Positions 3,589 to 10,985 of a stretch of DNA of 64,000 nt are shown piece after piece. The stretch covers positions 45,078 through 109,077 of the forward strand of contig CACYVC010000007.1 in assembly GCA_902777835.1 (NCBI GenBank). The letters are read 5' to 3'. The notes below the pieces were generated by a model that was not told the DNA's origin, did no database searches, and worked only from the letters and a program-made list of their open reading frames with translations. This stretch comes from an uncultured Bacteroidales bacterium. GTDB lineage: Bacteria; Bacteroidota; Bacteroidia; Bacteroidales; Muribaculaceae. The position numbers and the translations under genes were made by a program. The stretch's first letter is position 1; each line of letters opens with the position of its first letter.

Positions 3589-5022
3589 TTAGTTAGCTCC
3601 CAACATGATGTTGTAAACAGCAGTAATATCGGCAGCTGTGATGATGCCATCGCCAGTCTGGTCGCCATTAACGATGTGTGACTCGTCGTTGTTGAGCAGG
3701 AAGTCATAGAGGGCTGTAATATCAGCTGCAGTAACCTCGCCGTCTCCGTTAACGTCACCAGGAACACTTACTACCATTGGATCATCGGGCACTACGCCTT
3801 CACCAACCACATACACGCCCATGCCGTTGTAGCACTTATACTCAAACACCAGTACAGCTTCTTTGCCACCCTCTTCGGTGTAGTCGGTAATTACTGGATG
3901 AATGCGAAGACCGCTATCACTGGTCTGACCTTGGCCGTCGGCGGGGAAGGTCCAGTAGCGCTGCATGCCGCTGAATGACATACCCTCGCCAAGCTCGCAG
4001 ATGTTAACCTCACACGCGCCGGGAGCTTGATACTGATGTATTGGATAAACGATGAAGTTGCGGTCACCAAGCTTAAATTCGGCAATACCATTACATCCCA
4101 CCTCGGGCACCAACAGGCTGTCGGCCTGCATTTCCTCGGGGCTGAGGCTGCCAAAGCCATCAACGATAGTGCCATCGCTGGCATAGAGGGTAGGAACAGT
4201 GGTGAAACCGTCGATGTAGAAGTTCTCACCACTGTAGCGGGTATCTTCATCCTCACCAAGCACGAAGCGGCAAGCAGGAGCATAACCCCATTGTGTCTGG
4301 CTCTCGGGATACATCTCGGTGAATTCCATATATGGGTCACCGCTGAAGAAACCTTCCCAAGTGTCGGCATCACCGCCCTGGTCGTTGTGCCAAGCATAAA
4401 CGGTGGGGACCTGTGAGCCAGGAGTCATCACGTTGCACTCGGCCTCTTCAAGGGTGATGTCACCCACGAGGTCCACATAGTCGGTACGGGCAATCACATC
4501 GCCCTTGTTAAGAGTGGCAACGAGGGTCAACTCGCCAGTCTCAATGTTTACTTGATACAGAGGCACATCAGCGGTCTTCTCGCTGGTGTATGGTGCCGCC
4601 CACACGTGACCGAAGTTGTCCTTGCCAATTGTGTTCATTCCTAAGAACACTCCATAAGGCATTCCATTAAGAGTCACATCCAGTGGAGCCATCTCTTCGC
4701 CTGTCATAGCGTCGAAGCGGTAAATCACGGCACCCATGATAGTATCTCCAGGCTGCGGAATAATCTGCTTGGCCTCGCTGCGTGCAACATACACGATGCC
4801 GTCCTGCATCACAGCAGTACGAGCCTTAGTGTTACACCAGGCAAAGTCGTTTTGAAGCTCATTAACGCCATAGTGGAAACGGTCGAGCAGCCACAAGTTG
4901 CGCATGCTGATGCCATTCACGGTCTCATAGCCATTAGGGTCTTTCTTCAGCAGCAAACCTGCTGCCGACACACTCGAGCATGCTATTGCAACCAATGTTA
5001 GAACGAGTAAAAATTTCTTCAT
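3589..5022 (-). CDS. Secreted protein with propeller-like domain and C-terminal dockerin-like module (paralogue)
   Basis: The ATG at 5020-5022 is chosen because it starts a clean signal peptide (MKKFLLVLTLVAIACSSVSA), giving 477 residues; an in-frame start at 5109 would put a stretch without signal character in front. The body is clearly homologous to the 1997-3409 protein: 'VNGISMRNLWLLDRFHYG', 'TYPYGVFLG'-like, 'GDITLEEAECNVM' and 'NGMGVYVVGEG' blocks occur in the same order. The C-terminus is a dockerin-like pair (DVNGDGEVTAAD and DQTGDGIITAAD). The unusual conservation of 'GDITLEEAECN' and 'DPYM.FT..YPES' between the two suggests a shared binding or structural role. Function unknown. Confidence 0.85.
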   Translation of the reverse strand: MKKFLLVLTLVAIACSSVSAAGLLLKKDPNGYETVNGISMRNLWLLDRFHYGVNELQNDFAWCNTKARTAVMQDGIVYVARSEAKQIIPQPGDTIMGAVIYRFDAMTGEEMAPLDVTLNGMPYGVFLGMNTIGKDNFGHVWAAPYTSEKTADVPLYQVNIETGELTLVATLNKGDVIARTDYVDLVGDITLEEAECNVMTPGSQVPTVYAWHNDQGGDADTWEGFFSGDPYMEFTEMYPESQTQWGYAPACRFVLGEDEDTRYSGENFYIDGFTTVPTLYASDGTIVDGFGSLSPEEMQADSLLVPEVGCNGIAEFKLGDRNFIVYPIHQYQAPGACEVNICELGEGMSFSGMQRYWTFPADGQGQTSDSGLRIHPVITDYTEEGGKEAVLVFEYKCYNGMGVYVVGEGVVPDDPMVVSVPGDVNGDGEVTAADITALYDFLLNNDESHIVNGDQTGDGIITAADITAVYNIMLGAN

Positions 5023-5189
5023 TTTGCAAAATGTTTTAGATATTAATAATGATTTTTTAGAATTTTCTTTACAACCCACAAAGAAAACAAAAACTAAACA
5101 AATGACCAAATTTTTCTCACATTTTTTCCACGCAAAGTAACAAAATTACACATTATTGATAATATTAATAAGATGTCTAGAGGACAACC

Positions 5190-5340
5190 CAGCGCCCACC
5201 ACGCAGCAAGGGTCGCCTAGCGGCTCAAAATTTATTGAAAATTAAATAAAAAATTAGTTTGCAGCCGATAGGAAATTTCAAATACAATTTTGATATAATA
5301 TTAAAGCGCCCTTAGAGCCTTCATGGGAAAAAGCAATTAT
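5190..5340. repeat. Dispersed intergenic repeat, copy A
   Basis: The first ~63 nt (5190-5252) differ from 8947-9009 at two positions. The following ~90 AT-rich nt align loosely and end in a shared 'aaaaagcaatt' block. A short third copy of the opening segment follows at 5346-5377. The repeat lies between the 3589-5022 gene and the BspA-like gene. Confidence 0.8.
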
Positions 5341-5345
5341 AAACC

Positions 5346-5431: not shown

Positions 5432-8002
5432 TCAATTCTCTAACAGCAGGTTGTAGAGCGCAGTGATGTCGGCGGCTGTGATATTTCCATCTCCGTTGAT
5501 GTCGCTAGTGTCGTAGTAGGTCAGGTCTTCATTGAGCAAGTAGTCATATAGAGCTGTCACATCGGCTGCTGTAACAACATTGTCACCGTTTACATCCACC
5601 ACTCGCAGCTCAAACGCGGCAGGCTCGGCGTTGCCGTCGGCTGTGGACACGGTGATGGTGGCGGTGCCATTCTGTACGCCCACAATCATTATCGCTTTAG
5701 TGCTTGCCAAGGCAGGGTCTTTACTTTCACTTGGAACTGCCAATTCCTCCATCATGGCAAGCGCCATACCCTTCTCGGGGAATGACTTCAAGCCAGCAGC
5801 CGGAGCATTAGCGCGGTTCACCACACGTGCTACAGCCACGCTCGGGTCACTCGAGGTCACAACAAGCTCTACTGGCACATCTGGAGTGCAAGAAAGATAA
5901 ACCGTCAACATCTGGCTTGCGCCCATAATGGCATTTTCGACATTGAGAGTGATTGTAACATTGTTAGTCACAGTCACATGGCAAGTTGCTGTTTGGTCAA
6001 GAACAGTTGCTATAATGTCACACTCACCTTCGCCAATGGCAATTACCTTGCCATTTGCGTCAACAGTCGCCACACTTGTGTTGCTTGATGACCAAGTGGG
6101 AGTTAGACCAGTGTTGTCAGGAGTGATAGCAGCTGTTAACGTCTGTTCATCTCCAACGTTCATTTCCAAGTTTTCGTCGCTTAGCGACAAAGTGATTTCA
6201 GGATAATTGACAGTGATATGGCAAATCGCGTATGCTGCACCATGCGATGAAGCAAGAGTGGCATGGATGTCACATTCTCCACCTTCAATAGCAGTTACGA
6301 CACCATTCTCATCTACAGTCGCTACCCATGGGTTAGTAGAACTCCAAATAACCTCATCTCCCTCTGTAGTGACAGTTGCGGTTAATGCCAAAGTTTCCCA
6401 TTGAATAAGACTTGCGCTTGATTTATCAAGTGTTACTTTGCCGAGGTCATTAATCATATTGTTGAAGTTCTGCCAGTAATCTGCCATAAAATAGAAAGCG
6501 ATTGAAGTGGTTGGCACATGGAGTTCTCCGTCATAGTTAGCAAAAGTGCCAGACGAGCATGCGGGAGGTGTCTCGGCATAGCAGTTCACCACATCGGGAG
6601 TGAAGCCAAAACTCCCCCCCAATGAAGTGATGCCACAGCCAATATTTACTATCTTTAATTGGTTTATTATCTGTGCAAGCCCACTATGCCTTGATGAGTT
6701 ATAATTCCATCCACCTTGACCAGTAAGGGTCACCGAGGTCAAGCCTTCGCAATAATAAAAGGCGTAGGCACCAATCGAAGTCACCGAGTTAGGGATGGTC
6801 ACCGAGGTCAAGCCTGTGCATTCATAGAAGGCATAGTTGTCAATCGAAGTCACCGAGTTGGGGATGGTCACCGAGGTCAAGCCACTGCAACCAGAGAAGG
6901 CATACCTGCCAATCGAAGTCACTGAGTTGGGGATGGTCACCGAGGTCAAGCCACTGCAACTAAGGAAGGCACCTTCACCAATCGTCGTCACCGAGTTGCC
7001 TATGGTCACAGAGGTCAAGCCACTGCAATTACGGAAGGCATTGGGGCCAATCGAGGTCACCGAGTTGGGGATGGTCACCGAGGTCAAGCCAGTGCAACCA
7101 TAAAAGGCATAGTCGCCAATCGAAGTCACTAAGTTGGGAATTGTTAATGAGGTCAAGCCACTGCATTTAAGGAAGGCAGAATTACCAATCGATGTCACCG
7201 AGTTGGGGATAATGGTGTTCTTGCAACCATAGATTAAAGCATTAGTAGCAGTCTCTATTATAGCGTTACAGTTGTTGCGGGAATCATATTTTGTGTTTCC
7301 ACTCTCTACAACCATTGAGGTCAAGCCACTACAACCACCGAAGGCAGAACCACCAATCGAAGTTACCGAGTTGGGGATGGTCACCGAGGTCAAGCCAGTG
7401 CAATCATAGAAGGCGTAGGTACCAATCGAAGTCACCGAGTTGCCTATGGTCACAGAGGTCAAGCCACTGCAACCCCAGAAGGCACCATAAGCAATCGTCG
7501 TCACCGAGTTGGGGATGGACACCGAGGTCAAGCCACTGCAATTACGGAAGGCACGAGCGCCAATCGAAGCCACCGAGTTGGGGATGGTCACAGAGGTCAA
7601 GCCACTGCTAGCGAAAGCATCATCACCAATCGATATCACCGAGTTGGGGATGGTCACCGAGGTTAAGCCACTACAACCACCGAAGGCAGAACCGCCAATC
7701 GAAGTCACCGAGTTAGGGATTTCAATAGAGGTCAAGCCACTGCAACCCCAGAAGGCTGCATAGCCAATCGAAGTCACCGAGTAAGTAATGCCATTATAGG
7801 TTACAGTTGATGGGATATTCACGGCTCCAGTGTATTCGTCTAAAAACTCATAATAACTATCTCCTCTGTAAGTCACAGTAGCATCGTTGCCGATTATATT
7901 ATAATAAATGCCATCAACGGCGAAGTCATGGGCACTTGCCAATTGTGGCAGCATTGCCGCTACTAAAGCGAGCAAAAGAGATTTAAAAGTCTTTGTTTTC
8001 AT
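5432..8002 (-). CDS. BspA-like leucine-rich-repeat surface protein with Ig-like domains and dockerin-like C-terminus
   Basis: 856 residues with signal peptide (ends ASA, about residue 24). About residues 60-440 hold 14 LRR_5 (BspA/TpLRR) units of mostly 23 residues, pattern 'TSIG..AF..CSGLTSVTIPNSV'. Unit 3 is one residue short, and the usual BspA insertion with an 'NTKYDSRNNCNAII' block sits after unit 7. Two Big_2 Ig-like domains follow (about 530-700, each with 'W.S.N..VATVD.NG.V.AI..GE.DI'). A region with weaker Ig character and a C-terminal dockerin-like module (DVNGDNVVTAAD, DINGDGNITAAD) end the protein. BspA proteins bind host or microbial surface ligands; the ligand here is unknown. 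A full promoter lies ~295 nt upstream, so the mRNA leader is long. Confidence 0.9.
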   Translation of the reverse strand: MKTKTFKSLLLALVAAMLPQLASAHDFAVDGIYYNIIGNDATVTYRGDSYYEFLDEYTGAVNIPSTVTYNGITYSVTSIGYAAFWGCSGLTSIEIPNSVTSIGGSAFGGCSGLTSVTIPNSVISIGDDAFASSGLTSVTIPNSVASIGARAFRNCSGLTSVSIPNSVTTIAYGAFWGCSGLTSVTIGNSVTSIGTYAFYDCTGLTSVTIPNSVTSIGGSAFGGCSGLTSMVVESGNTKYDSRNNCNAIIETATNALIYGCKNTIIPNSVTSIGNSAFLKCSGLTSLTIPNLVTSIGDYAFYGCTGLTSVTIPNSVTSIGPNAFRNCSGLTSVTIGNSVTTIGEGAFLSCSGLTSVTIPNSVTSIGRYAFSGCSGLTSVTIPNSVTSIDNYAFYECTGLTSVTIPNSVTSIGAYAFYYCEGLTSVTLTGQGGWNYNSSRHSGLAQIINQLKIVNIGCGITSLGGSFGFTPDVVNCYAETPPACSSGTFANYDGELHVPTTSIAFYFMADYWQNFNNMINDLGKVTLDKSSASLIQWETLALTATVTTEGDEVIWSSTNPWVATVDENGVVTAIEGGECDIHATLASSHGAAYAICHITVNYPEITLSLSDENLEMNVGDEQTLTAAITPDNTGLTPTWSSSNTSVATVDANGKVIAIGEGECDIIATVLDQTATCHVTVTNNVTITLNVENAIMGASQMLTVYLSCTPDVPVELVVTSSDPSVAVARVVNRANAPAAGLKSFPEKGMALAMMEELAVPSESKDPALASTKAIMIVGVQNGTATITVSTADGNAEPAAFELRVVDVNGDNVVTAADVTALYDYLLNEDLTYYDTSDINGDGNITAADITALYNLLLEN
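6725..7790 (-). repeat. 69-bp tandem repeats encoding the LRR units
   Basis: Fourteen units, most 69 bp, are nearly identical at DNA level, with long runs such as 'caccgagttggggatggtc' recurring. One longer insertion lies at about 7208-7320. The similarity makes unit gain and loss by recombination likely. This is coding sequence, not a CRISPR. Confidence 0.85.
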
Positions 8003-8296
8003 TGTTATCCTATTTAAAAATTCATTTTTCTATAATACATAAAAAAGGGGGATTGCATATCCTTACTTGAAAATACAATACAGAAGTGGCACAGACCATT
8101 ATGGTGGACTGTGCTTAGATATAAAAAGTGAAATGAAAGTGTGACAGTTATTCCCGCCTATTGCAAATGAGGGGGGGTAAAAGGCTGATGTTCAATGAGT
8201 TGTATAACAACATTGAGGTCCTTTTTAATATTCTGCGGCAAGTTGTCACGGTTTTTATAGCCTGAGTTGGTTTATGATTTGGTATGAATTAGTTTG
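8003..8296 (-). promoter_or_regulatory. ~290-nt 5' leader of the BspA-like gene
   Basis: This untranslated stretch lies between the promoter at 8297-8328 and the ATG at 8002. It has no sensible ORF. It contains a hairpin at 8089-8114 (GCACAG/CTGTGC plus ACCAT/ATGGT, 3-nt bulge) and a G7 run near 8171. The length is unusual beside neighbours with 20-120 nt leaders, so a regulatory role is possible but unproven. Confidence 0.45.
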
Positions 8297-8328
8297 CAAA
8301 AATAATGTATAAAAGGGATTTATGCAAA
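8297..8328 (-). promoter_or_regulatory. Bacteroidota-type promoter for the BspA-like gene
   Basis: On the minus strand, TTTG (8325-8328) is followed after 20 nt by TATTTTTG (8297-8304), an exact match to the TAnnTTTG -7 element at canonical spacing. Confidence 0.7.
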
Positions 8329-8399
8329 TAATTCAAGGCTTCTTGCTTATAATTTCGTGAAAATAGGGCGTGAATATTTTATTTTTCCTGCGAAGCAAA

Positions 8400-8502
8400 C
8401 TTTGTGACGAACTATGTTCGCAGCTTTGTGAGATTATTTCTTGTCGCAGGATTCCTCTCACAAAGTTGCACCTATCGGTGTCACAAAGCCGCGCAAGCGC
8501 GG
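8400..8502. repeat. Cluster of short palindromes
   Basis: Three perfect inverted repeats lie close together: CGAAC-TAT-GTTCG (8408-8420), CTTTGTGAG (8424-8432) with CTCACAAAG (8457-8465), and CCGCGCAAGCGCGG (8489-8502). No convincing ORF covers them. They adjoin the four-hairpin element. Confidence 0.6.
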
Positions 8503-8522
8503 TATACCACCCCAACTGCTCA

Positions 8523-8560
8523 CAGCGCCCAACCCGCCGAGTCGCCTGGCGGCGAGAAAT
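8523..8560. repeat. Degenerate copy of the dispersed repeat
   Basis: 'ctcacagcgccca' and 'gtcgcctggcggc' recur as at 8944-8982 but with a changed and shorter middle. It sits left of the hairpin element, while copy B sits right of it in the same orientation. Confidence 0.5.
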
Positions 8561-8624
8561 CTATCAAATCGTTCCAAATCTAACAAATAATTATTTGATT
8601 GATTATTTATTTGATTCGGTGGAA

Positions 8625-8747
8625 GGCCGAAGGCCTGAACGTCCCCAGAGGGGACGAAGTGAGTTAACCTCACGGCGTGTAGCTCGAAGAGCTGCATGGC
8701 GTGAGGCAATTACGCACACTCCGCACAAGTGAGCCCCGTAGGGGGTC
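8625..8747 (+). repeat. Four-hairpin structured element, copy 1
   Basis: Four hairpins with 3-nt loops follow each other. H1 is at 8625-8635 (GGCC-GAA-GGCC). H2 is at 8641-8655 (GTCCCC-AGA-GGGGAC). H3 is at 8668-8706 (18-bp stem, GAA loop, one G-G mismatch at pair 8). H4 is at 8731-8747 (CCCC-GTA-GGGG core), followed by CAACA. Spacers are 5, 12 and 24 nt. Copy 2 at 8804-8927 has the same four hairpins on the other strand, with spacers of 5, 11 and 26 nt. Confidence 0.8.
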
Positions 8748-8803
8748 AACAGTTACATCGTCTGACAAAGAATGGAATGAGATGACATATCGGCACTGAT
8801 GTT

Positions 8804-8927
8804 GCCCCTCTTCGAGGCCCGTGGCGGGAATGTGATACTACATGTACCCCATGCCACGCAGCTCTTCGAGCCACGTGCCACGGGGTTATACATTTTGCCC
8901 TCTTCGAGGACATTGTGGCCTCTGGCC
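8804..8927 (-). repeat. Four-hairpin structured element, copy 2 (inverted)
   Basis: Read on the minus strand: H1 at 8917-8927 (GGCC-AGA-GGCC, extendable to 7 bp), H2 at 8897-8911 (GTCCTC-GAA-GAGGGC), H3 at 8847-8885 (18-bp stem, GAA loop, G-G mismatch again at pair 8) and H4 at 8804-8820, followed by CAACA. In H3, pairs 3, 6 and 11 differ from copy 1 by double, pairing-preserving substitutions, and pairs 5, 10 and 14 by wobble changes. Copies 1 and 2 face each other across 56 bp. Confidence 0.8.
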
Positions 8928-8946
8928 ACACCTTCCCGACTACTCA

Positions 8947-9102
8947 CAGCGCCCACTACGCAGCAAGGGTCGCCTGGCGGCTCAAAATTTATTGAAAATT
9001 AAATAAAAATTTAGCTCCCAGCGAATATGAAATTTTAAATCAAATTTTAATATAATTTTAAGCGAAGCGCCCATTGAGCCTCAAAGAGAAAAAAAGCAAT
9101 TT
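8947..9102. repeat. Dispersed intergenic repeat, copy B
   Basis: The first 63 nt are nearly identical to copy A at 5190-5252, and the rest aligns loosely up to the shared 'aaaaagcaatt'. It begins ~20 nt right of the four-hairpin element. Copies A and B lie on either side of the BspA-like gene in the same orientation. Nothing coding is visible between here and 9197. Confidence 0.8.
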
Positions 9103-9197
9103 TAAGCGAAGCTCACTTCGGCAATCGGTACTGGGGGTTATCCCGTGAGCAGCCACTGGCTGAAGACTTTTGCGCCACTCTATCTGCCTAACGCCCT

Positions 9198-9235
9198 AAA
9201 AGCCACCACCCCGGCGGCATGATGCGTCGGGGTGG
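9198..9235 (-). terminator. Terminator of the susC-susD operon
   Basis: On the minus strand CCACCCCGACG (9225-9235) pairs with CGCCGGGGTGG (9206-9216) with one mismatch, followed by TTTT. It lies ~30 nt past the stop of the last gene. Confidence 0.75.
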
Positions 9236-9266
9236 CGAATATATGACAGTATTTGAGCAATCCTGT

Positions 9267-10985
9267 TTAGAACAAGTTGGTCAGTCGGGGATTGATGCAA
9301 AGGCCAAGGATACGCTCCTTGTTGTTGTTGAAGTCTATCACCTTCTTCTGCACTGGGTCGTAATACTTCAAGCCAGTGGTGTAATTCTTCTCGGTGGATG
9401 CGGCGCGGAAACCGAAATAGACGAAGTGAGTGAGAGCATCAACAGCAAACTGTGTGGTATATACACCCTCATCGGCAGTGGTATTCTCGGGATTAGCCTC
9501 CATGTTGATGAAAGCAGTGTACTGGTCGTAATCTAAGCCCTGAGTAGGACCTGGCATTGGGTAGCAGGTGAAACCAGGACCCGGTGTTCCACCCTTGCAC
9601 ATCCACACATAGAGGTTGCCCAGATCCTCGTCGAGCGTGAAGGCGCGAGGCTGGGTGGCCTGCAGGACGATGGGGAATGGAATGGGACCGGTCTTGGTTG
9701 CCGAGGCCTCACCAATGTCGCTGGTGCGGAAGCGGTAAATACCATTGCCCGAGTAGTTCTTACCCCACCAGAACACGCCTGTGCGGTCCTGATAGAGACC
9801 AGTGTGGATAGCACCATAAGCAATACCATTGCCATAATAGTTGAGCATATTGTTCACGCAGAAGTAGCCTGCGATGCTCGAGAACACCGTCTGCTCACGC
9901 TCGCCACGTGTGGTGAGTGGCAAACGGCGGATACCAGTATTACGATCGGTATAATATAGGTAACCTCCCACTTGGTCGGCAAAGCCCTGGAATGGGTCGT
10001 TGAAGGCCTGACCACCCACGTTGGTGACCATTGTGCTCACATCGGTGCCGTCGGCAGTCATCACACTGATTTTACCGTCGCCCAACACACCGTTCTCGTC
10101 GTTGACATAATAGTACTGCTTGCCGCAGTCAAGGATATAGACATAATCCTTGTCCTCAACGCTGGCGAACACTAGAGTGGTGGGCATATTGCCAGAGCTT
10201 ACACCCATATCGAACGGCATGTTCTTGGTGCCAGCAGGCAACTGGCTCATATCCACGAGCTTATAGGCCTTAATATTACCGCCAAACACTGCATAATACA
10301 ATGTTGGGCAAGGAATCGACGAACCCACCTGTACGTTAACGTAGCTGTCCTCAAGGCGGCGATTCTCGCCGTTGATGTCAAACCATGTCTGTAACTCAAT
10401 CTTCTGCGAACCTATGTTCTTGAATTTGAGCTTGCCAGGGTTATCAACAGTGCCATCACTGTGGCTGTAACCTATGAACTCATTGATAACAGTGCCGTCC
10501 TCGAGCGTAGTGCCCTCTGGGAACTTCCACACATACTTGCACTCGAGGTCCTCAGGGTTAGGCAGCGCTATGTCGAGAAGCACAGTCACGTCGTTGATGA
10601 CCACAGTCTCGGCGCTCTGCTCTACCACGCTGAGCACGGGAGCGATATCATAGATGAGCAGCGGATAGGTGCGCTTGCCCACTCCATCAACAGTCAAGGT
10701 CACCTGATAGAGGCCCGCCTTAGAATACTTGTGGGTTGGGTTCTGGTCGGTCGATGTAGAGCCGTCACCGAAGTTCCAAGTCACACTGCCGCTCTTCTCG
10801 CTGGTGTTATTAAACTTGATAGTCGATACCACATAGAAATCGAGAGTATATTCATCTCCATCAACATTGTAGGTGAAGTCCACATCCTTGCCGCCAAAGT
10901 TGCCATAAACGGGTTCCTTCTCGACGCACGATGCCAACGCCAGCACCACCAATGTCATTAATGCTATATTCTTAAAGATCTTCAT
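9267..10985 (-). CDS. PKD-domain surface lipoprotein of the SusCD operon
   Basis: 572 residues. The N-terminus is a lipoprotein signal with LASC lipobox (Cys at about residue 20) followed by acidic residues, as in exported surface lipoproteins. About 40-115 is a PKD fold with the diagnostic 'VTWNFGDGSTS' and 'HKYSKAGLYQVTLTVDG' strands. A second Ig/PKD-like region spans about 120-225. The remaining ~340 residues look like a beta-propeller (repeated 'YVYILDCGKQYYY', 'YLYYTDRNTG', 'NLYVWMC'). It is the fourth gene of a susC-susD-lipoprotein-PKD operon (16-nt gap to the gene before). Members of this position usually sit on the SusCD complex and help capture substrate; whether sugar or peptide cannot be told. 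Confidence 0.85.
   Translation of the reverse strand: MKIFKNIALMTLVVLALASCVEKEPVYGNFGGKDVDFTYNVDGDEYTLDFYVVSTIKFNNTSEKSGSVTWNFGDGSTSTDQNPTHKYSKAGLYQVTLTVDGVGKRTYPLLIYDIAPVLSVVEQSAETVVINDVTVLLDIALPNPEDLECKYVWKFPEGTTLEDGTVINEFIGYSHSDGTVDNPGKLKFKNIGSQKIELQTWFDINGENRRLEDSYVNVQVGSSIPCPTLYYAVFGGNIKAYKLVDMSQLPAGTKNMPFDMGVSSGNMPTTLVFASVEDKDYVYILDCGKQYYYVNDENGVLGDGKISVMTADGTDVSTMVTNVGGQAFNDPFQGFADQVGGYLYYTDRNTGIRRLPLTTRGEREQTVFSSIAGYFCVNNMLNYYGNGIAYGAIHTGLYQDRTGVFWWGKNYSGNGIYRFRTSDIGEASATKTGPIPFPIVLQATQPRAFTLDEDLGNLYVWMCKGGTPGPGFTCYPMPGPTQGLDYDQYTAFINMEANPENTTADEGVYTTQFAVDALTHFVYFGFRAASTEKNYTTGLKYYDPVQKKVIDFNNNKERILGLCINPRLTNLF

Follow-up and report, generated by a model that had tools for sequence, protein, structure and literature searches.

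Between two protein-coding genes of an uncultured Bacteroidales bacterium of the Muribaculaceae (NCBI GenBank assembly GCA_902777835.1, a draft genome of 2.89 Mb) lie two inverted copies of an element made up of four hairpins, raising the question of what such a pair is and how it came to be there. The copies are intergenic and were located at 8624-8747 (plus strand) and 8804-8930 (minus strand) of the window, the 64,000-nucleotide stretch of contig CACYVC010000007.1 (positions 45,078 to 109,077) that was analysed. An original prediction, made from the letters of the DNA, had recognized the pair and offered a non-coding RNA, a mobile unit resembling REPs (repetitive extragenic palindromic sequences), or a nucleoid or termination site as possible identities. 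The pair is probably a miniature mobile unit, each module being the counterpart of one end of a small mobile unit, [H1-H2-H3-H4]-tnpA-[H4'-H3'-H2'-H1'], in which tnpA encodes a Y1/HUH transposase with the signature of TnpA subclass 1.2. This reading is preferred because of the conserved structure of the element, its strand asymmetry, its linkage to tnpA, a likeness between units that is confined to the units themselves, its dispersal, and the occurrence of tnpA-deleted derivatives in related genomes. The window pair itself is best read as a transposase-less derivative resembling REPINs (REP doublets forming hairpins); its origin from a tnpA-bearing unit is what we infer.

Structure of the element and the strand that folds

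The presence of two inverted copies with four hairpins each was confirmed, the coordinates and base pairs agreeing with those predicted to within a few bases. In copy 1, H1 occupies 8624-8636, H2 8640-8656, H3 8668-8706, and H4 8731-8747; copy 2, on the opposite strand, presents H4 at 8804-8820, H3 at 8847-8885, H2 at 8896-8912, and H1 at 8914-8930. With the stem lengths of the present analysis, the gaps between hairpins are 3, 11, and 24 nt in copy 1 and 1, 10, and 26 nt in copy 2; of the spacers given earlier (5, 12, and 24 nt, and 5, 11, and 26 nt), those of 24 and 26 nt were reproduced and the others were revised. Within H3, the double substitutions that distinguish the copies at pairs 3, 6, and 11 were all found, as was the G-G mismatch at pair 8 of both copies, and the wobble changes described at pairs 5, 10, and 14 are present as one-sided changes. 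H4 carries a G.G at pair 3 in both copies, with a second at pair 2 in copy 2. Folded as single-stranded RNA, copies 1 and 2 gave z-scores of -6.5 and -5.65, respectively, with none of 200 shuffles as good; as DNA, the values were -6.7 and -5.95, and H1 to H3 of both copies were recovered, together with a shorter stem only for H4 of copy 2.

Two covariance models were built, R1 from five copies and R2 from 100; R1 scored copy 1 at 124.6 bits and copy 2 at 133.4 bits, both copies being among the five from which it was made. Conservation of the structure was evaluated on a MAFFT alignment (A4) of 100 of the 146 elements gathered, which left out 33 elements below 58 bits and 13 at or above this score (one of them the duplicate place L142:501-624). 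Over these 100 copies, 90.7% of cells are paired and double changes occur in 35 of the 40 pairs. Double-change cells number 559, where shuffles gave 160.9 ± 9.6 and slid controls no more than 98; none of 500 shuffles reached any of the five measures, and the slid controls were 30.6-51.8% paired. The size of these effects weighs more than the count of shuffles, because related sequences may exceed shuffles without any structure and because the structure was derived from some of the same sequences. The covariation that the original prediction had called for is, by these pair counts against shuffles and slid controls, very strong.

A G.G mismatch was observed at one pair of H3 in 94 of the 100 copies and at one pair of H4 in 89, and its GGC/GGC context is intact in 85 copies at H3, 76 at H4, and 67 at both. 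Triloops of the form C(GNA)G are present at H1 in 73 copies, H2 in 20, H3 in 75, and H4 in 72; as such triloops are described as extraordinarily stable in DNA (available text of PMC4686876), they favour single-stranded DNA as the folding form. When three pairs rich in mismatches are left out of the count, G-T cells exceed A-C cells by 271 to 28, or by 186 to 28 when one fixed wobble is subtracted, and the H1-to-H4 strand is therefore the strand selected to fold. The same asymmetry speaks against cruciform DNA, another possibility entertained at the outset. It also bears on the proposal that the element is a structural site of the chromosome (nucleoid, cruciform, or terminator) retained for a function of its own. 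Such a site would be in keeping with a palindromic, repeated element that is mostly outside long reading frames, but it is extremely improbable given the wobble asymmetry, the spread from 0 to 46 matches per genome within one genus, and hairpins without a terminator-like site. An intrinsic terminator or an RNA gene was considered separately and rejected: two terminator-like sites were detected within 8000-9300, neither of them at the hairpins, and nothing is conserved just before H1, where none of the preceding 30 nt holds one base at 50% or more in 99 copies.

Linkage to a Y1 transposase gene

A search of the host genome at the DNA level identified a single copy of the element (L002) and a locus, L004, in which a 148-aa reading frame, here called tnpA (protein P0001), has the element before it and an inverted copy behind it; the spacer between the two H4 hairpins of the window pair (8748-8803) holds the position that tnpA has in L004. 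P0001 matches the Pfam family Y1_Tnp at 68.3 bits and does not reach the NCBIfam cut-offs for IS200 (48.3 of 55 bits) and REP_Tyr_transpos (25.8 of 80 bits). The mapping against a Y1 transposase gene that had been suggested thus found the same elements on both sides of such a gene in the host itself, in support of the REP-like mobile unit among the identities first offered; the group to which the transposase belongs had not been named in the prediction. This tnpA is the sole match in the host genome, and genome G035 has at most nine, fragments included. A PDB sequence search with the protein was weak: the top match was an unrelated repeat protein (7pvp, E 0.0004, with no single stretch passing), followed by the transposase chains 2xm3, 2xma, and 2xo6 (E 0.065-0.21), which we take to be ISDra2 TnpA. 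Records with a close tnpA derive from uncultured Prevotellaceae, Muribaculaceae, Porphyromonadaceae, or Bacteroidales bacteria, one of them from goat reticulum.

The HUH motif is present in all 69 tnpA homologues examined, as NH(I/V)H in 67 (P0001 reads NHIH) and as DH(I/V)H in two; the motif Y---Q--HH is present in 68, including P0001, the remaining one reading YIKNQKENH, and its tyrosine is Y114 in L076. In the available part of a 2018 survey (Quentin et al., PMC6006769), Y---Q--HH is the signature of TnpA subclass 1.2, a group tabulated with the HUH form DH(I/V)H and with 'no' REP, and described as generally without typical terminal IS200 structures. P0001 may be placed in this subclass by motif and length only, its HUH form differing from the one tabulated. 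A literature search that reached few subscription papers and no supplements returned no partner repeat reported for subclass 1.2.

The association of element and gene was evaluated at the best-scoring tnpA locus of each of 30 genomes, from the 49 genus genomes with a match, using lenient flank thresholds (R2 at E<=0.02, plus R1 and, for one side, E 0.05). All 30 loci are flanked by an element on one side or more and 26 on both; R2 at E<=0.02 accounts for 24 of the 26, the other two being L071, where R1 supplied one side, and L074, where one side was matched at E 0.05. The one-sided loci are L070, L072, L073, and L069, the last of which reaches a contig end. In every tested locus, the nearest element reads inward from its own side. 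In the host genome, the upstream copy ends approximately 49 nt before the start of tnpA (L009, element to 1451 and gene from 1501), as might be expected of a structured non-coding RNA or an mRNA leader, such as a control element of tnpA spread by duplication, and the strand-asymmetric wobble pairs fit RNA as well as single-stranded DNA. However, the same module recurs inverted after tnpA and is also present without the gene, the 30 nt before H1 are unconserved, no Rfam family matched the window at gathering score, and the triloops are of the kind noted for its stability in DNA; an identity as RNA is thus very unlikely.

The ends of the mobile unit were suggested by comparison of tnpA-bearing loci. 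L009, with elements at 1326-1451 and 1959-2082, resembles L077 over 1328-2078 and L075 over 1328-2049 (coordinates of L009), the likeness breaking off at both H1 feet with L077 and at the left one only with L075. Over the 1-3 kb around these three units, blastn at E 1e-5 returned nothing else except crosswise matches between elements, and because of this lack of likeness around the units they look like different sites; L076 is the same site as L009, at least on the right side. Between related species, tnpA units are alike only from H1 foot to H1 foot, and the element therefore has the appearance of a mobile-unit end. Consistent with the notion of paired ends, neighbouring elements no more than 160 nt apart are tail-to-tail in 43 of 51 cases (four head-to-head, four on the same strand) and those with a gap of 400-600 nt in 24 of 25, the loci having partly been picked for holding pairs; the duplicates L019, L022, L043, and L048 were left out of this count, as was L021, which is also a tail-to-tail pair. 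A different arrangement was observed at L139 (G020:C5:71002-72780), a tandem array of four same-strand elements with a 218-nt period.

Remnants of tnpA lie between the elements of the G035 pairs L131, L132, and L133, providing a route by which transposase-less pairs could arise. In the spacer of the window pair, matches to tnpA were at chance level only (E 0.27 or worse). Four pairs of the window type are found elsewhere, in genome G074, with spacers (49-53 nt) similar in length to that of the window pair.

Outside the close tnpA group, 35 more distant loci were examined by comparing one flank with the reverse complement of the other. Four have short flanks; among the remaining 31, 24 share flank sequence above 200 shuffles and seven share nothing. 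Of these 24, 16 score better in the direct orientation and eight in the inverted one, and the inverted layout, as judged from these flanks, does not appear to be general beyond the close group. At E<=0.01, R2 matched only L089, L091, and, weakly, L094 and L085 among the 35; R1 at E<=0.001, given eight of the distant loci, matched L084, L089, and L091. One Acidobacteria contig carries two tnpA homologues approximately 7 kb apart (L092, L093) with shared flank palindromes that are stronger in direct orientation.

Distribution and signs of a second mover

The host genome contains five strong matches to the element, with three weak ones on the opposite strand of the same places. R1 matched 25 of 61 genomes, all of them among the 37 of the host's genus (host included), and none of the 24 from other families. 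Among 61 genomes of the genus, R2, which was built mostly on elements of this genus so that counts within it favour the model, matched 54, the host included, under strict filters and on draft genomes; tnpA matches were obtained in 49. The further copies in related genomes that the original prediction had called for were thus found, with at least one match in each of these 54 genomes and the highest numbers in G035 (46), G005 (43), and G074 (35), compared with five in the host. Across the order, five of 149 genomes matched, namely the host and four weak ones outside the family, and neither of two genomes from other genera of the family did. In one of the four weak cases (L214), a 20-aa C-terminal fragment of tnpA (65%, E 8e-5) lies beside the match. 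The midpoint of the element falls in a long frame at 3 of 19 loci, compared with 703 of 855 control positions. Elements are more numerous in genomes with a tnpA match at E<=1e-50 (median 9, n=24) than in the others (median 3, n=37; p 4e-6), in a comparison that is uncorrected for kinship of the species and counts in the copies flanking tnpA. The 12 genomes without any tnpA match hold 0-10 elements.

Several observations weigh against reading the pair as derived from the ends of a tnpA unit. The host holds just its five copies, six genomes with at least five elements have no tnpA match better than E 1e-10, and the remaining three weak order matches (L211-L213) are without a tnpA fragment beside them. 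In both window copies, the GGC/GGC surroundings of the mismatch in H4 are not intact. Distances between tnpA genes and between elements are correlated (Mantel r 0.88, p 0.0002, 31 loci), a correlation that linkage and descent would also lead one to expect, and just 10 of the 31 loci have their own partner as the closest element; this comparison and the flank test with R2 omit L075, L078, L081, L082, and L083, whose contigs look like those of L046, L047, L049, L051, and L073. Of the copies in G005, 14 dispersed ones reach 75-100 bits with R1, compared with 30 and 28 for the two beside its best tnpA, and therefore either this genome lacks the cognate gene or a different mover is at work. The G005 copies examined (L177-L190) are mostly without a strong partner, and at five junctions of single copies none among the matches listed crosses an empty site.

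The last of these contrary observations comes from G035, where near-identical pairs occur at several sites inside longer units with terminal repeats. Ten of 12 units have terminal repeats and 8-9-bp duplications, eight of the ten scoring above the control maximum. Exact 9-bp duplications border L119, L120, L121, and L126, and ones with a single mismatch L122, L125, and L128, the ends being of the CATTACTGTCC/CATTGGTGTC type; exact 8-bp duplications likewise border the tnpA-bearing L129 and L130, and one with a mismatch borders L133, with its tnpA remnant, the ends of these three being GG(T/C)TCACC. No such terminal repeats were seen by eye in an alignment of 13 G005 copies, the surroundings of which are unrelated. 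Duplications of 8-9 bp point to a DDE-type mover, unlike Y1 enzymes, and such a mover, presumably IS4-like or ISL3-like, probably carried four-hairpin modules in some genomes. Known IS200/IS605 members, according to the available text of PMC2817692, make no larger target duplications.

If this applied throughout, the pairs would be cargo of miniature inverted-repeat transposable elements (MITEs) mobilized by a DDE-type transposase and the Y1 gene a mere passenger, as the consistent ends of the duplicated G035 units, tnpA-bearing ones included, and similar ends seen by eye in some G074 units and at L208 of G079 would allow. This is unlikely, however, given that just 13 of 43 units exceeded the best of 120 mismatched-flank controls and that consistent ends are shared by eight of the 13, all in G035 (L122 and L125 have the same ends and fall below the control maximum). 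The window unit scored 7, where the control median was 5, the 95th percentile 7, and the maximum 9, and neither it nor L009, L046, or L077 has a duplication above control. The exact end pattern occurs seven times in G035, five times in G074, and not at all in the host, and L009 resembles L077 no farther than the H1 feet. Finally, no DDE transposase was recognized by eye, no family search having been made, in four element-free loci with the pattern (ATTRSTGTC-type ends; L217, L221, L223, and L225, the last ending at a contig end).

The surroundings of the window pair were also inspected. To its left is a gene at 5432-8002 (minus strand), with BspA-type leucine-rich repeats and a dockerin match, and to its right one at 9267-10985 (minus strand), with a PKD domain; the downstream gene was matched in many relatives, and among the matches listed none joins both flanks as an orthologous empty site would. 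Another dispersed repeat, of the form AGCGCCCA...GTCGCCTGGCGG followed by AT-rich sequence, flanks the pair with a left copy at 8506-8564 (plus strand; families D2 and D3) and a right copy at 8930-8992 (plus strand), and is probably not part of the four-hairpin element; it recurs at approximately 5190-5342, at other places of the genome, and in such relatives as G001, G069, and G011. The segment 8400-8505 is palindromic (GCAGCTTTGTGAGA / TCTCACAAAGTTGC and TCACAAAGCCGC), and contigs C5, C11, and C37 match it in part. The genes at 3589-5109 and 5432-8002 (minus strand) encode proteins that end in a match to dockerin type I (Pfam PF00404); BspA leucine-rich repeats and Ig-like domains are present in one of the two.

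Proposed mechanism and comparison with known systems

The two modules of the window pair are set with their 5' ends outward, and a mechanism may be proposed for the pair as a miniature mobile unit. Whenever the DNA became single-stranded, as on the lagging-strand template, the module strand would form its four hairpins, the majority of them closed by C(GNA)G triloops. TnpA would then recognize the hairpins, perhaps via the G.G mismatches inside H3 and H4, and would cut and rejoin single strands near the H1 feet; binding, cleavage site, and single-stranded intermediate are steps that we infer. For units that have lost tnpA, the window pair presumably among them, movement would occur in trans, as has been proposed for REPINs and REP-associated tyrosine transposases (RAYTs).

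A broader proposal, given a little less than an even chance, is that the element is an undescribed composite four-hairpin module for recognition of single-stranded DNA, forming the cognate end of TnpA subclass 1.2 in a REPtron-/REPIN-like system of its own, where C(GNA)G triloops and G.G mismatches would replace the GTAG guide. If so, a transposase subclass listed without a specific substrate in the 2018 survey (PMC6006769, as far as available) would have one, and REP/RAYT-like partnership would reach beyond class-2 proteins to one of class-1-like type in Bacteroidales. With a multi-hairpin substrate and DNA-type triloops, the question would also arise of how one small HUH enzyme reads several hairpins. 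The intergenic repeat family, for which the window gave no Rfam match, now has a name.

Among known systems, the REP/REPIN and RAYT partnerships (REPtrons) share the most with the element, in that, by the available text of PMC2817692, PMC3116915, and PMC8266576, a Y1 gene is flanked by inverted palindromic repeats, copies are dispersed between genes, transposase-less inverted pairs occur, the palindromes are imperfect, and repeat and protein co-vary. Canonical REPs, however, are 20-40 bp with one palindrome, whereas the present element is approximately 125 nt with four hairpins; GT[AG]G lies 0-2 nt before the hairpin foot in just 5 of 100 copies at H1, none at H2, 4 at H3, and none at H4, and lacking these guides the element is not a canonical REP. 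RAYTs are class-2 proteins with Y---NP in place of Y---Q--HH, and the copy numbers found here are modest. With IS200/IS605 (subclass 1.1, e.g., IS608 and ISDra2) the system has in common a Y1 HUH transposase and end hairpins; as to target duplications, none exceeds control at the window unit, L009, L046, or L077, and G035 units carry ones of 8-9 bp. Its ends, however, are inverted multi-hairpin modules, its protein is under the NCBIfam IS200 cut-off, and the host has one copy. The remaining comparisons are with groups in the 2018 survey, as described in its available part (PMC6006769). Subclass 1.2 agrees in Y---Q--HH, a length of 148 aa, low copy number in the host genome, and occurrence in Bacteroidetes, and differs in that modules flank the genes here and that HUH is mostly NH(I/V)H rather than DH(I/V)H. 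The 'atypical secondary structures' of subclass 2.6 and class 3 TnpA are likewise unusual flanking palindromes without GT[AG]G and with copies elsewhere, but they belong to other protein classes, are called weaker, and are described without a four-hairpin architecture. The architecture is thus REPtron- and REPIN-like, and is set apart by its protein signature, its lack of GT[AG]G, and its four hairpins.
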